From Candidatus Aenigmatarchaeota archaeon (GTDB lineage Archaea; Aenigmatarchaeota; Aenigmatarchaeia; CG10238-14; SCSR01), in NCBI GenBank assembly GCA_018304615.1, contig JAGVVV010000009.1, forward strand, positions 1 through 45,159: 45,159 nt of DNA, written 5' to 3'. A program made the position numbers and the translations under genes. The notes under the pieces were generated by a model that saw nothing but the letters and a program-made list of their open reading frames with translations, ran no database searches and was not told the origin of the DNA. Of this stretch, positions 38,858 through 44,419 are shown in pieces (within the stretch, counting starts at the first letter, position 1; each line of letters begins with the position of its first letter).

Positions 38858-39595
38858 TTAAAGTGCTTTCCATAAAATTTTAAAATACGTTCTCAAACTA
38901 TCTGCAATTTCACTATTCTCTATTAAAATTCCTGTTGGTTCTGACCACATGATTATAGAAATTTTATCCCCATATATGTTAATCGCAATTTGGCCTACCG
39001 TATCTTTTGATAAATATTTGACCTTTGTATAAGGAAGTTTGGAAAGTTTAAATGCTCTGTTATTATCGTTTTTACTGAAAATCATTTTTATCGGGATTTT
39101 TTTATTTATTCTTCTTTTATGGAAATTAATCAAATAATTTTTAATCGGTTCTGGTGGTTTGTGAGCATGCAAAACTAAATTTTCTTTACCAGTAACAAGA
39201 ATGTCGTTGAGCAATGATTTGACACCTTTAATGCCTTTGTGTATACTAACAAAATTTTCTTCCTTAGGAATTTGCTTGATTTGTAAAAGATCAGAAAGAA
39301 TGGAACTTACGTTGACTTCTTTTCTTTTTAGTTTTTCCTTCTCTTCTTCCAGAATTTCCAAGAAATAATTGGGGTTAGAAGCTTTGAAATATCTCTTCTT
39401 ATTTTTCACGATATAACCAACCAAACCCATCTTCATCAAATCATCAAGGGAGTCGTAGACATTCCTTCTGTGAACGCCAGAAGATTTTGCTATATTTTCA
39501 GCAGTAGAAGAACCTGATTTCAGAAGGGAAAGATAAATTTTTGCCTTATTCCTTGAGAGTCCAAGCTGTTCGAGTTTTTTTAATCTATCAGGCAT
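38858..39595 (-). CDS. TrmB-family transcriptional regulator (paralogue 1)
   Basis: wHTH LGLSRNKAKIYLSLLKSG...SGVHRRNVYDSLDDLMKMGLV; TrmB-like C-domain. Confidence 0.87.
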   Translation of the reverse strand: MPDRLKKLEQLGLSRNKAKIYLSLLKSGSSTAENIAKSSGVHRRNVYDSLDDLMKMGLVGYIVKNKKRYFKASNPNYFLEILEEEKEKLKRKEVNVSSILSDLLQIKQIPKEENFVSIHKGIKGVKSLLNDILVTGKENLVLHAHKPPEPIKNYLINFHKRRINKKIPIKMIFSKNDNNRAFKLSKLPYTKVKYLSKDTVGQIAINIYGDKISIIMWSEPTGILIENSEIADSLRTYFKILWKAL

Positions 39596-40199
39596 GGACT
39601 AACACCTCCACTGGAGCAACAGAATTAGGATTGAACACATCAGCTTTAAGTCCAGCCAAGCGTGCTCCTCGTACCATCCTATCTTGATCATCTTTATATT
39701 CAATCAATTCAGGAGGCATTCTCATTCTGTCAACTAATTCTTCCCAATAACCATAATCAGGTTTTCTTACACCGATATCAGAAGGAATAAGAATTACATC
39801 AAAAGTTTGGCTCAAAGAATATTTCTTATCCCACCATTCTAACCATGGTCTGGGGCTGTTTGTAGCTAAACCAATCTTAAAATGACCTCTCAGATTTCTG
39901 AACCATTTCATTACATATGCGTATGGATAATGCGATTCAAGCACTTCATAATTTATTCGGTCCAGTTCAGAATCAGTGAATCCCTTTCCGTTTTCCTTAA
40001 AAACTGCATACCAAAAATCTCGTGGGGACATTTCCCCCAAAGAAAATGGAATCCAGTACTTATCTTTCGTTTGTTGTAAGACATCATTCTCAATGCCTAA
40101 TCTTTTTCCAATTTTTGTTACTGTAGGTGGAAATCCGTCGTAAATACAAACTCCACACAAATCTACTACTACACCTAAGGTTGCTTCAAGTTCTAACAT
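39588..40199 (-). CDS. HAD-superfamily hydrolase
   Basis: VVVDLCGVCIYDG, IGLATNSPRPWL, VRKPDYGYWEEL; overlaps the TrmB gene. Confidence 0.8.
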   Translation of the reverse strand: MLELEATLGVVVDLCGVCIYDGFPPTVTKIGKRLGIENDVLQQTKDKYWIPFSLGEMSPRDFWYAVFKENGKGFTDSELDRINYEVLESHYPYAYVMKWFRNLRGHFKIGLATNSPRPWLEWWDKKYSLSQTFDVILIPSDIGVRKPDYGYWEELVDRMRMPPELIEYKDDQDRMVRGARLAGLKADVFNPNSVAPVEVLVHA

Positions 40200-40274
40200 C
40201 CATTATTAGATAGTAAGAAAAACATAAGAGGTTTTGAAAAAATTTCTATTATGTAGGATAATTCAGAAAAAAAG

Positions 40275-40292
40275 TGGTGGTATAGGTAACCA
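40275..40292. promoter_or_regulatory. operator-like site A: TGGTGGTATAGGTAACCA
   Basis: matches reverse complement of site C (TGGTGGTGAAAATCACCA) at the same length; abuts TATA-like ATATATTG. Confidence 0.65.
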
Positions 40293-40335
40293 TATATTGA
40301 CATATCGTCTCTTTTCCATTTAACAAACAGATAAA

Positions 40336-41103
40336 ATGGGTGGACTGAAAGAGGCTCCTGGGATTGTTCCTGCTTTGGACACGACATTAGGAAAAGCGTT
40401 GTCACTCGCTTATGAACTCCGCGATTCCAAGGATAAAATAACTTTCTTGAAGTACGGAAGTTTCATCATGGATCCATGGGGGTATAAAAATTCTTTACCG
40501 CATTTCCAAGAGGTTGCTCCTGAATTGCCGATAGTGATAGACCGTCACAAAGGTGGCACGGATATACCGGAAGTTGTTAGGAATCAGGTTTTAGAAGTTA
40601 AGAACTATTCAAATGTCGTAGGGATGATTGCCGCACCTCTGGGTGCAGGAAGTTATAGAGACCTGAATGATCTAAAGAAAATTGGAACATTAGAAGCTTT
40701 TGTCGATACCTGTTTTGAACATCCTGCTATAACACCAATTATTGTTGTTGAGATGTCGCAGCCGGGAGCGCTTGCGTTCAGTGAGGAAAAGTATGCAGAC
40801 AAATTATGCAAAACCTGTTTGGATTATAATGTCAAATATATTGTTGCACCTGCTACACGACCACAAAGGATAACGAATCATAAGAGAATAGCACACGAAC
40901 TTAATAAAGAGGGAATTGAAATAATTTCTCCAGCCGTCGGACCTCAAAAAACTGGTGACCCGCTCAAGGACGCGATAGATGCAGTTGCAGCTGGTACAGA
41001 TCATGTAGTGGCAGGAAGGTCTATTTTAAAAGCCTCGAATCCCAAACAAGCAACAATTGACCTTTACGAGGCAATATTGCCAGTACATACAGCGCGACAA
41101 TAG
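40336..41103 (+). CDS. pyrF: orotidine 5'-phosphate decarboxylase family protein (archaeal type)
   Basis: PALDTTLG, FLKYGSFIM, DRHKGGTDIPEVV, VEMSQPGALAF, APATRPQRI, AGRSIL. Confidence 0.87.
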   Translation: MGGLKEAPGIVPALDTTLGKALSLAYELRDSKDKITFLKYGSFIMDPWGYKNSLPHFQEVAPELPIVIDRHKGGTDIPEVVRNQVLEVKNYSNVVGMIAAPLGAGSYRDLNDLKKIGTLEAFVDTCFEHPAITPIIVVEMSQPGALAFSEEKYADKLCKTCLDYNVKYIVAPATRPQRITNHKRIAHELNKEGIEIISPAVGPQKTGDPLKDAIDAVAAGTDHVVAGRSILKASNPKQATIDLYEAILPVHTARQ

Positions 41104-41143
41104 ACTAAAGAATTTTAACGAATAAAATGTAAAGAAGGATTTC

Positions 41144-42034
41144 ATGGATTTAAGTTGGCAGGAAGAAAAGGATGCACTAGGTGAAGAATTAGTTAGATTG
41201 GCTTATCAGTCACGATGTATAGAAACAATTTTCAACACAAGAGATCCAGAAAAAAGAAGGAATGGTTGGACTCTGAAAAATGGAACAAACAGCATTTATT
41301 ATATCAATTTTAGGAATGCTGGGAATTCGGCTGAATTCACAGCAAAGTTAGGCTATCTGATGGGAAGAGTTCTCCAAGAAGAAGTTAGAGATTTTGATTA
41401 TGATAATGATGTGATAATAGGAGTTGACATGGCTGGTGTTCCTTTAGTTTCGGCAGTCTCTACGTCTATGTACTATAGAACAAATGGTAGAGTTAAAATA
41501 AAATGGGGGTATACAAGACCTCTTCCAGGAGAGAAAATAAGAAACGTCGAAGATGCAAGAACAGTCCTTGAAGAATTAAAACGAAAAAATCTAAGTCTTG
41601 GTGAATGGGGTTCTCACAATCTTATTGAAGGAGAAATTTTGGATGGGCATCGAGCACTAATTTTTGATGATATGGTTACAGATTTTGCAAGTAAACTAAT
41701 TGCAAGGGAAGTAATCAGGTACGATGCAGATAGACGTAGAATAAGGGTAGTGTGCAACACATCAGTAGTTGGTGTAGATAGGGAACAGGGCGCAGACAAA
41801 ACAGCAAAAGAAGAGGGAATGAAATTGTTCCATGGAGTACCAATGAAGACTAAAGGTATGGCGTGGCTTGCAGGTGCGATGCCTCAAGAGCAGTACAAGT
41901 ATTTAATGGCGTTTGTCTATAAACCAGATTTATTTCAGGATATAGACAGAGATCCAAAAATAGATAAGGAAAAAGGAATAAGTTCTCCGGCCATGCGAGA
42001 AGCTCTTGAATTAGCTGCAAAGAGTGGTAATTAG
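41144..42034 (+). CDS. pyrE: orotate phosphoribosyltransferase-like protein
   Basis: LKNGTNSIYYINFR, VIIGVDMAGVPLVSAVS, HRALIFDDMVTDFASK, VVGVDREQGADKTAKEEG. Confidence 0.8.
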   Translation: MDLSWQEEKDALGEELVRLAYQSRCIETIFNTRDPEKRRNGWTLKNGTNSIYYINFRNAGNSAEFTAKLGYLMGRVLQEEVRDFDYDNDVIIGVDMAGVPLVSAVSTSMYYRTNGRVKIKWGYTRPLPGEKIRNVEDARTVLEELKRKNLSLGEWGSHNLIEGEILDGHRALIFDDMVTDFASKLIAREVIRYDADRRRIRVVCNTSVVGVDREQGADKTAKEEGMKLFHGVPMKTKGMAWLAGAMPQEQYKYLMAFVYKPDLFQDIDRDPKIDKEKGISSPAMREALELAAKSGN

Positions 42035-42045
42035 GTATCACCACT
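42023..42045. promoter_or_regulatory. operator-like site B: AGTGGTAATTAGGTATCACCACT
   Basis: inverted AGTGGT...ACCACT; shares TAGGTA core with site A; abuts TATA-like TTAATAAAAT before ATG 42082. Confidence 0.6.
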
Positions 42046-42081
42046 TAATAAAATCTTCTCATATCCCCATTAAAAGCTACC

Positions 42082-42609
42082 ATGACTTTGACAACTTTAA
42101 CCTTGGAAACGGAATCAAGAACTTTGAAAGATGTCATTGCTTATTTAGGAACACCGGCTCTTTATCCATACAAACATGAAGAATTGCCCAATCCAAAAGT
42201 TCAGGAATATGTTGCTGAGGTTTCATTTGGGTTAACTAAAACTGTTAAATCAGAGATTCTGGGGAAACGTACATATTTCTTTGATGGACACGGCTCTAGG
42301 AACGGAACTGATCAATATGAAAAACTTAAATTGATTTGTGGCGGTATTCCTGATGGAGAAAATGCAGTTTTAGTTTTTGGCAGACCGGAAGATAATAAAC
42401 CTGTTGGTATATTTATCCAAGGACTTGGGGATTTATTGGAGGCGTATCATATGCTTGGTATTTTGGGTGATAATGTCTTCTACTGGGACAGAAATAAACG
42501 TCAATTTGTCAACAAAAGGATAGAAAAACCGGAAGAAATGATTGAAATTGCAGATGCTATAAGTGAATTGAAAACCTTGGGTACAGAAGGAATTTTTGAA
42601 TTCAGTTAA
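42082..42609 (+). CDS. protein of unknown function in the TrmB-bracketed cluster
   Basis: 175 aa; no family recognised. Confidence 0.75.
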   Translation: MTLTTLTLETESRTLKDVIAYLGTPALYPYKHEELPNPKVQEYVAEVSFGLTKTVKSEILGKRTYFFDGHGSRNGTDQYEKLKLICGGIPDGENAVLVFGRPEDNKPVGIFIQGLGDLLEAYHMLGILGDNVFYWDRNKRQFVNKRIEKPEEMIEIADAISELKTLGTEGIFEFS

Positions 42610-42610
42610 T

Positions 42611-43600
42611 TTACCATCTTGATTTGTGAGCTTTTACTACTGCATCATTGATTCTCTCATCCATGTCAATTGCTGCATCTCTAGCTGCAAATTCAAATTT
42701 TTCATCTCCATACTTATCGAAATATTCAGGTTCTTTCCACGCAGCAATTATCCCTCTGGAAGAATTTACAAAAGCACCTCTTCCGTCATTACCTAAAAGG
42801 AAAGGTACATCTTCAGGCTTTCCTCCCTGCTGTTTTTTCTGTTTTAAACCAATGCCAGGTGATAGCCAAAGACTTCTAGGCATAAACCCCCTTAGAGATG
42901 GGCCGTCTACTGATGCATAAGTGAGTCCTACTACAGCACCAACTGATTTCCAACCTTCTTCTCCTTCCGTACCTTCACCCCATTTGTCTATATATTTAGC
43001 CACATGTTCGCAAACTTTCAATCCTGATTGAAGCTTTTCATCTTGTAGTTCAGTAGCAGATGGATTTGATGTCTTGTCTAAAACTTGTATTCCTTTTTTA
43101 TGGGCAATAACGTCGTTCCTGAATTGTCCAATGGAATCAGTCATTAAATAACTATTAACAGTCAAACAATCTAGATCGTAAGATGGTACTCTTTCCCCAC
43201 TCAATAATTTCACTCTGCCTAAGTGACCTTCAGAATATTTTTTTGCAGTCTCTTCAACTTCATCCCTCTTTCCGTCCTCTAATACCTGAAGACCTTTTGA
43301 ACGTGCATATAATATAGCTTCGGCAAAAGCTCTAATCCCAGGACCTTGATAACATTCATAAAAAGCTATGTTGAGCTTAGCAGCAGATAAAAGAGGATGA
43401 AGGGCATCTATAAGTCGTTTATCAAATTCTAAAAATGCAGCTCCAACTGCTTCAAAACTATCACCATATTTATCTAAATACCGTCTTTTCAAATGCTCAG
43501 GAATAAAATCTACATTTGGATCCAAACCTACAATGACATAACTTTCTTTTTCGTCAATAGCACGAAGCATTCTGTCAGAAAAGCTGTTTACAATTACCAT
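42611..43600 (-). CDS. pyrF: orotidine 5'-phosphate decarboxylase, bacterial type 2
   Basis: YVIVGLDPNVDFIPEHL, AKLNIAFYE, LEDGKRDEVEETAKKY, VLDKTSNPSATELQD, GAVVGLTY, FVNSSRGI. Confidence 0.9.
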   Translation of the reverse strand: MVIVNSFSDRMLRAIDEKESYVIVGLDPNVDFIPEHLKRRYLDKYGDSFEAVGAAFLEFDKRLIDALHPLLSAAKLNIAFYECYQGPGIRAFAEAILYARSKGLQVLEDGKRDEVEETAKKYSEGHLGRVKLLSGERVPSYDLDCLTVNSYLMTDSIGQFRNDVIAHKKGIQVLDKTSNPSATELQDEKLQSGLKVCEHVAKYIDKWGEGTEGEEGWKSVGAVVGLTYASVDGPSLRGFMPRSLWLSPGIGLKQKKQQGGKPEDVPFLLGNDGRGAFVNSSRGIIAAWKEPEYFDKYGDEKFEFAARDAAIDMDERINDAVVKAHKSRW

Positions 43601-43642
43601 TCTATCTGCTAACTATTCAAATATTATTGAAATAAGTCTATT

Positions 43643-43660
43643 TGGTGATTTTCACCACCA
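43643..43660. promoter_or_regulatory. operator-like site C: TGGTGATTTTCACCACCA
   Basis: perfect inverted TGGTGA-TTT-TCACCA; between divergent pyrF(-) and TrmB(+). Confidence 0.7.
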
Positions 43661-43693
43661 AAGTTAAATCTTTAAACTACAAGTAAAAAACTG

Positions 43694-44419
43694 ATGATAC
43701 AAGAATATCTGAGAGAAATTGGACTTTCAAGGAACGAAGCTAAAATTTACCAAGTACTAGTAGAACTTGGACCTTCACCTATAGGAGAAATTAGTTCAAA
43801 AACAAAAATCCACAGAAGGAATGTTTATGACTCCATAGAAAAACTGAAAGAAAAAGGTTTTGTTTCATGGACAATTAGAAATGAGAGGAAATATTTTGAG
43901 GCAACAAATCCTCAGAGAATAATCGATATCATAGAAGAGAAGAAAGAAAAGATAAAAGAAATTATACCAAAACTGCTTGCGAGCCAAAAGCCTAGTGACA
44001 AACAAAATGTTCGAATCTACACGGGAATTGAAAGCGAAAAAAGAATCTTTGATGACAAGCTAAAATTTAAAGAAGAACAGCTTGTTTTAGGGGCTCACAA
44101 TCCCTCGGATCATATCTCTAAACACCTCATGCTTTACCATAAAAAAAGGATTGCTAGGAAAATTCCGCTAAAAATGCTATATCCTAAAAATGAAACTAAG
44201 ACAGCAAAAAAGTTTGCCAAACTCAAATATATGAAAATTAGAATCCTGCCTTTATCGTTTAATTCTCCAATCGCAATCAATGTCTACGGAAATAAAGTGG
44301 CAATTCTCACTGGCTCTGGCAAAAGCTCTCCTATTTCTATATTAATTGAGGATAAGAATCTCAGTAATAATTTTAGAAATTACTTTTATGCTCTATGGAA
44401 AATTTCTCAGCCACTTTAA
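43694..44419 (+). CDS. TrmB-family transcriptional regulator (paralogue 2)
   Basis: wHTH IGLSRNEAKIYQVLVELG...TKIHRRNVYDSIEKLKEKGFV; clear paralogue of 38858-39595. Confidence 0.88.
   Translation: MIQEYLREIGLSRNEAKIYQVLVELGPSPIGEISSKTKIHRRNVYDSIEKLKEKGFVSWTIRNERKYFEATNPQRIIDIIEEKKEKIKEIIPKLLASQKPSDKQNVRIYTGIESEKRIFDDKLKFKEEQLVLGAHNPSDHISKHLMLYHKKRIARKIPLKMLYPKNETKTAKKFAKLKYMKIRILPLSFNSPIAINVYGNKVAILTGSGKSSPISILIEDKNLSNNFRNYFYALWKISQPL

Follow-up and report, generated by a model that had tools for sequence, protein, structure and literature searches.

Why should two TrmB-family regulators stand at the two ends of a gene cluster for pyrimidine synthesis? The question is raised by a contig of Candidatus Aenigmatarchaeota archaeon (assembly GCA_018304615.1, contig JAGVVV010000009.1, positions 1 to 45,159; this whole 45,159-nucleotide stretch is the window below). 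Between positions 38858 and 44419, two paralogues with the recognition helix HRRNVYD flank genes for an orotidine 5'-phosphate decarboxylase (OMPDC), an orotate phosphoribosyltransferase (OPRT) and a second OMPDC. The known roles of TrmB regulators lie in sugar metabolism, in purine synthesis in one haloarchaeon, in chromatin and in oxidative stress. The initial annotation had proposed a self-contained regulon, in which the two proteins control the synthesis of uridine monophosphate (UMP) through a shared TGGTG-type operator. This predicted control is now well supported by comparative evidence, namely by the ranking of the sites with an external matrix, their recurrence in relatives, the clade and effector-domain signature of the regulators, and a correlation between recognition helix and operator base.

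Operator sites and their recurrence

The regulators and the candidate operators are placed as follows:
38858..39595, minus strand: TrmB1, winged helix-turn-helix (wHTH) regulator, helix HRRNVYDSL; PF01978 59.9 bits; grouped with L154, L155 and L156 in the pyrimidine-linked clade
40273..40294, no strand: operator A, AGTGGTGGTATAGGTAACCATA; ends 41 nt upstream of the OMPDC1 start codon; abuts the TATA-like ATATATTG; matrix score 15.6, rank 2 in the window
42023..42045, no strand: operator B, AGTGGTAATTAGGTATCACCACT; ends 36 nt upstream of the orphan gene's start codon; matrix score 17.6, rank 1 in the window
43641..43662, no strand: operator C, TTTGGTGATTTTCACCACCAAA; between the divergent OMPDC2 and TrmB2 genes; ends 31 nt upstream of the TrmB2 start codon; matrix score 15.2, rank 3 in the window
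43694..44419, plus strand: TrmB2, wHTH and PLD-like C-terminal domain, helix HRRNVYDSI; PF01978 56.7 bits

A, B and C are copies of one inverted repeat of 22-23 bp, TGTGGTGAT-N4/5-ATCACCACA. The three shared sites of the initial annotation are thus real, with corrected limits: A and C are longer than given there, and B overlaps the 3' end of the OPRT gene, covering the final 12 bases of its open reading frame. A recount gives 13 of 18 identical positions between A and C, instead of about 12. The gene positions, the cluster content and both recognition helices held when coordinates and families were rechecked, and so did the placement of the sites against TATA-like boxes. The sites abut the TATA region and probably touch the transcription factor B recognition element (BRE).

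A half-site weight matrix was trained on 34 sites that precede HRR-helix TrmB genes in other archaea; none of them came from a pyrimidine-linked locus or from the genome studied here. Applied to the window, it returned exactly B, A and C as the top three matches, followed by one of 11.1 inside a gene. The best scores in ten shuffled windows ranged from 8.1 to 15.8, so chance could produce one such score, but not three with a promoter at each. Nor is the motif equally frequent elsewhere in the genome (785 kb, 22 contigs, 89% complete), for which we used pattern searches, family searches and a limited number of stretches. The pattern TGGTN10-11ACCA occurs at 17 places, of which only A, B and C score above 2.0. 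"TGGTG-type" patterns lacking the full half-site were not enriched in the genome, and a search for a shared site at the unlinked pyrB gene was negative over the stretch examined.

Scanning the TrmB alignment against 84,980 GTDB genomes returned 80 loci, the closest named relatives being Candidatus Aenigmatarchaeota. The repeat TGTGGTGAT-N4/5-ATCACCACA lies within 150 bp upstream of 37 of the 60 TrmBs with Arg-Arg in the recognition helix. Other genes of these loci had it in 0 of 475 upstream regions, and shuffling gave it in 3 of 1200 cases; the counts include related sequences. As a rule, 28-38 nt separate the end of the repeat from the start codon, and it directly adjoins a AAATTTAAAT-like TATA region. 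Individual sites also have counterparts: a near match to A, TGTGGTGGTATATAATACCATA, stands beside a TrmB-OMPDC pair of a nanohaloarchaeon; a near-identical copy of C, TGTGGTGATTTCCACCACC, precedes an OMPDC gene in G132; and TGTGGTGATACATAATCACCATA, upstream of a Woesearchaeota TrmB, is comparable to B.

Conservation of the motif in relatives had been named as a test of the regulon, and it does stand before pyrimidine genes beside orthologous TrmBs in other phyla. The TrmB-pyrimidine linkage was found in Aenigmatarchaeota, Pacearchaeota and Nanohaloarchaea, and TrmB2 relatives in other DPANN genomes share contigs with OMPDC and DHODH matches. The loci L196 and L197 also link TrmB with OMPDC/OPRT; five further ones read:
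G117: TrmB, OPRT, OMPDC2
G144: TrmB, OMPDC, OPRT
G153: OMPDC2, TrmB, OPRT, DHODH, DHOase
G132: DHODH, TrmB, OMPDC, OMPDC-like gene without family match, TrmB, OMPDC1, OPRT (linkage twice)
G089: TrmB, gene without family match, OMPDC (confirmed)

Inverted repeats of the TGTGGT/ACCACA type stand in front of several genes of these five loci. The top matrix match of the whole locus lies at the promoter of a pyrimidine gene in G153, G132, G089, L196 and L197, and two OPRT loci without TrmB (G009 and G055) had no comparable site.

The TrmB regulators and the bases they may read

Both regulators score above the PF01978 gathering threshold of 25.6 bits. In two alignments of TrmBs, the Tyr and Asp that close the HRRNVYD helix are invariant; in Pyrococcus furiosus TrmB, Y50 and D51 at the end of the recognition helix contact DNA (PMC4158304). 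For each TrmB, more distant ones with other helices among them, we compared helix residues with the upstream site that matched best. In 47 of 47 TrmBs with arginine as the third helix residue, the fourth base of the half-site is G; among those with other residues this holds for 0 of 18, a contrast whose significance is inflated by shared ancestry. The pairing extends to DRRN, ERRN and ERRT helices. Threonine goes mostly with T (6/8), and serine, alanine or glutamine mostly with A (7/10). A strict rule of one residue, one base was dropped for helices without arginine; HRTTIYD was found twice with T and once with A. Contacts between arginine and guanine are usual, and the correlation fits them. 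It also ties the type of TrmB protein to the type of site.

It seems somewhat more likely than not that DPANN TrmBs share one operator plan of 22-23 bp, TGTnGT-N9-11-ACnACA, in which helix residue 3 would set base 4 (G for Arg, mostly T for Thr, mostly A for Ser, Ala or Gln) and the C-terminal domain would set the metabolite. If so, regulons could be read straight from the genome sequences of mostly uncultured lineages, with the pyrimidine clade as the first assigned branch.

Three sets of loci beyond the pyrimidine-linked ones are worth recording here. Near-perfect 22-bp repeats, TGTAGT-N10-ACTACA, lie upstream of double-length TrmB reading frames with HRST or HRAT helices in L098, L114 and L142. 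TrmBs with HRAN and NRTT helices and TGTTGT-type sites occur in L118 and L140 near genes that read, by eye only, like CTP synthase, possibly another pyrimidine link. A small divergent gene family of about 155-190 aa accompanies TrmB relatives in 12 DPANN loci (L159, L162, L166, L168, L171, L172, L176, L185, L193, L195, L208 and L225), most of which have HRR helices and an operator between the small gene and TrmB.

Ten of the 68 TrmBs in a tree are pyrimidine-linked; these need 2 label changes, compared with 9.5 in shuffles (0/500), and so appear to form very nearly one clade. The group also takes in two exceptions, L183, at a contig end, and L165, which adjoins a gene that by reading alone resembles PurM. 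TrmB1 and TrmB2 fall in different halves of the group, and G132 likewise has one TrmB in each half, which indicates that the pair is an old duplication. All nine alignment rows assigned to the pyrimidine clade, L183 among them, have H149 and P137, and most have H135; outside the clade, H135 and P137 occur in none of the rows and H149 in 3%. The recognition helix is thus common to more TrmBs than the effector domain, which is what a clade set apart by its ligand would show.

For PF11495, the TrmB effector domain whose Gly and Glu bind sugar in the sugar-sensing subfamily, there was no match in 11 members among the families listed at E values up to 1. An AlphaFold2 model of TrmB2 (pLDDT 93.9) has TrmBL2 and TrmB as its best fold matches, followed by PLD/Nuc folds for the C-terminal part.

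What best explains the locus

The best explanation of the locus as a whole is very probably a local regulon of a pyrimidine-specialised TrmB branch in DPANN archaea. We infer that TrmB1 and TrmB2, products of a duplication present also in G132, would bind the operators as dimers through their HRRNVYD helices. Each operator adjoins BRE/TATA elements: A those of OMPDC1-OPRT, B those of the orphan gene and C those of OMPDC2/TrmB2. The final two reactions leading to UMP could thus be controlled together with TrmB2 itself. The PLD-like C-terminal domain, with its clade-specific H135, P137 and H149, probably senses a small molecule, for which a metabolite of the pyrimidine pathway is the most likely candidate. 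As to the direction of control, sites of TrmBL1 upstream of the promoter activate and those downstream repress (PMC4706686), and repressed genes of Har. hispanica have sites overlapping the BRE (PMC10817205). We lean slightly towards repression rather than activation, with TFB kept from the BRE.

Several findings weigh against such a regulon. The control-region and helix-base statistics are uncorrected for shared ancestry. Sites in G117 and G144 are diverged and low-scoring, the spacing between the six-base arms varies from 6 to 11 among genomes, and in G089 a gene without family match separates TrmB from OMPDC. An OPRT locus without TrmB, G091, contains a partial match scoring 11.7. The same operator type also stands beside HRR-helix TrmBs that adjoin unrelated genes in other genomes, so the operator alone is no sign of pyrimidine control. 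Of the pathway itself, aspartate carbamoyltransferase (pyrB; TIGR00670, 306 bits) is encoded on another contig, but neither DHODH nor a CPSase small chain turned up in this reduced genome, and its sole amidohydrolase match, next to MetK, is no evident dihydroorotase. Imported orotate or a related precursor may therefore be the starting point of the pathway, or the genes may lie in the missing tenth of the genome. A switch on the conversion of orotate to UMP may then reflect pyrimidine supply from a host.

These points have to be set against the other ways of reading the sites. Chance inverted repeats are the least credible of them and already largely refuted. As palindromes, A, B and C are not exceptional within the window, which made the case of the initial annotation weak from the window alone; neither of the loose patterns TGGTN7ACCA and TGGTN10-11ACCA shows enrichment across the genome, and a single score near 15.6 did arise in shuffled windows. 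Yet A, B and C, all at promoters of one cluster, are exactly what an independent matrix selects from 45 kb, and near-identical sites recur at homologous promoters of relatives. It is also most improbable that the sites belong to another DNA-binding protein, with the TrmBs binding elsewhere or acting like TrmBL2 as chromatin proteins. The closest solved folds are indeed those of TrmBL2, but the enrichment of the site upstream of TrmB genes over other genes of the same loci, and a half-site base that follows the TrmB helix residue, speak for the TrmBs as its readers.

A somewhat stronger rival, though still an unlikely one, is that HRR-TrmBs are mainly autoregulators, whose operators serve their own control while the pyrimidine genes are bystanders. 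Most relatives do have the site before the TrmB gene itself, and their neighbours are diverse. Against this, A, B and the sites in G132, G153 and G089 precede pyrimidine or other cluster genes rather than TrmB, and the pyrimidine link is almost confined to one clade with its own effector-domain residues.

In the literature searched, which left most subscription papers outside, we found neither TrmB control of pyrimidine genes nor this operator reported, and no description of a transcriptional regulator of the DPANN pyrimidine pathway. With a branch dedicated to UMP synthesis, the TrmB family would have a broader role than is known so far. A recurring site and regulator type across several archaeal phyla points to a previously undescribed circuit of nutrient control, and with the correlation between helix and operator, regulons could be predicted from the TrmB genes of thousands of uncultured genomes.

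The cluster genes and known TrmB systems

The remaining genes of the cluster are:
39588..40199, minus strand: HAD-family hydrolase, first gene of the HAD-TrmB1 pair; PF00702 E 8e-7
40336..41103, plus strand: OMPDC1, archaeal-type orotidine 5'-phosphate decarboxylase; PF00215 43.1 bits
41144..42034, plus strand: OPRT, orotate phosphoribosyltransferase; TIGR00336 E 9e-14, under the family cut-off
42082..42609, plus strand: orphan protein of 175 aa behind operator B; no family match
42611..43600, minus strand: OMPDC2, PyrF subfamily 2; TIGR02127 185.6 bits, cut-off 110.6

HAD and TrmB1 form an overlapping leftward pair, OMPDC1 and OPRT run rightward and are followed by the orphan gene, and at the right end OMPDC2 (leftward) and TrmB2 (rightward) diverge. 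The best match of the HAD protein is weak (pyrimidine 5'-nucleotidase YjjG, TIGR02254, 33.6 bits), far under the cut-off of 159.9. A HAD-like gene also follows the TrmB of the nanohaloarchaeal TrmB-OMPDC locus L197 (6847-7503).

OMPDC1 carries the catalytic pattern D-x-x-K-x-x-x-D-I-P, with the same D-K-D spacing as its DPANN relatives. OMPDC2 reads DGKRDEV, compared with D-x-K-R-x-D-I in about 15 relatives, with Glu at the position of the last catalytic Asp; OMPDC2 may therefore be altered or non-catalytic. The two lie 1.5 kb apart, OMPDC1 having the motif of its own relatives. A first GTDB scan with OPRT as query gave no matches; relatives in two DPANN genomes are 67% and 55% identical, and despite its score below the cut-off the protein is clearly OPRT-like. 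The orphan protein had no relative among 195 genomes and no similarity to the gene upstream of OMPDC/OPRT in G009. A fold predicted from its single sequence (pLDDT 40) was unusable and was not used. Its gene sits behind the best-scoring operator of the window.

Among known systems, TrmBL1/Tgr of Thermococcales is similar in its TrmB-type wHTH, in an inverted repeat next to BRE/TATA and in using one site type for several metabolic promoters (PMC4158304, PMC4706686). It differs in being sugar-responsive through a PF11495 domain and in binding the Thermococcales glycolytic motif (TGM), TATCAC-N5-GTGATA, with another half-site order, at glycolysis and gluconeogenesis targets, whereas the TrmBs described here have no PF11495 match, a TGTGGTGAT/ATCACCACA operator and predicted pyrimidine targets. 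This consensus is also unlike TACTN3AGTA, TATCACN5GTGATA and TACTN7-8GAGTA (Table 1 of PMC4158304). TrmBL2 of Pyrococcus furiosus gives the best profile coverage beyond the wHTH (residues 11-195) and the best fold match, and it too has no sugar-binding domain; it is described as a chromatin protein, while the TrmBs of this cluster are associated with a specific operator placed locally. Haloarchaeal TrmB (VNG1451C and that of Har. hispanica) shares a partly palindromic motif near promoter elements, and in Hbt. salinarum it also affects purine synthesis (PMC10817205). It is glucose-responsive, however, its motif is of the TACT-N7-8-GAGTA type, and pyrimidine genes are unmentioned in the Har. hispanica paper (PMC10817205). 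Lastly, GfcR of Haloferax is an OPRT-like glycolytic regulator, and our OPRT has a marginal GfcR match (E 0.036); it matches the enzyme family better (E 9e-14), is no GfcR by score, and lies beside OMPDC genes.

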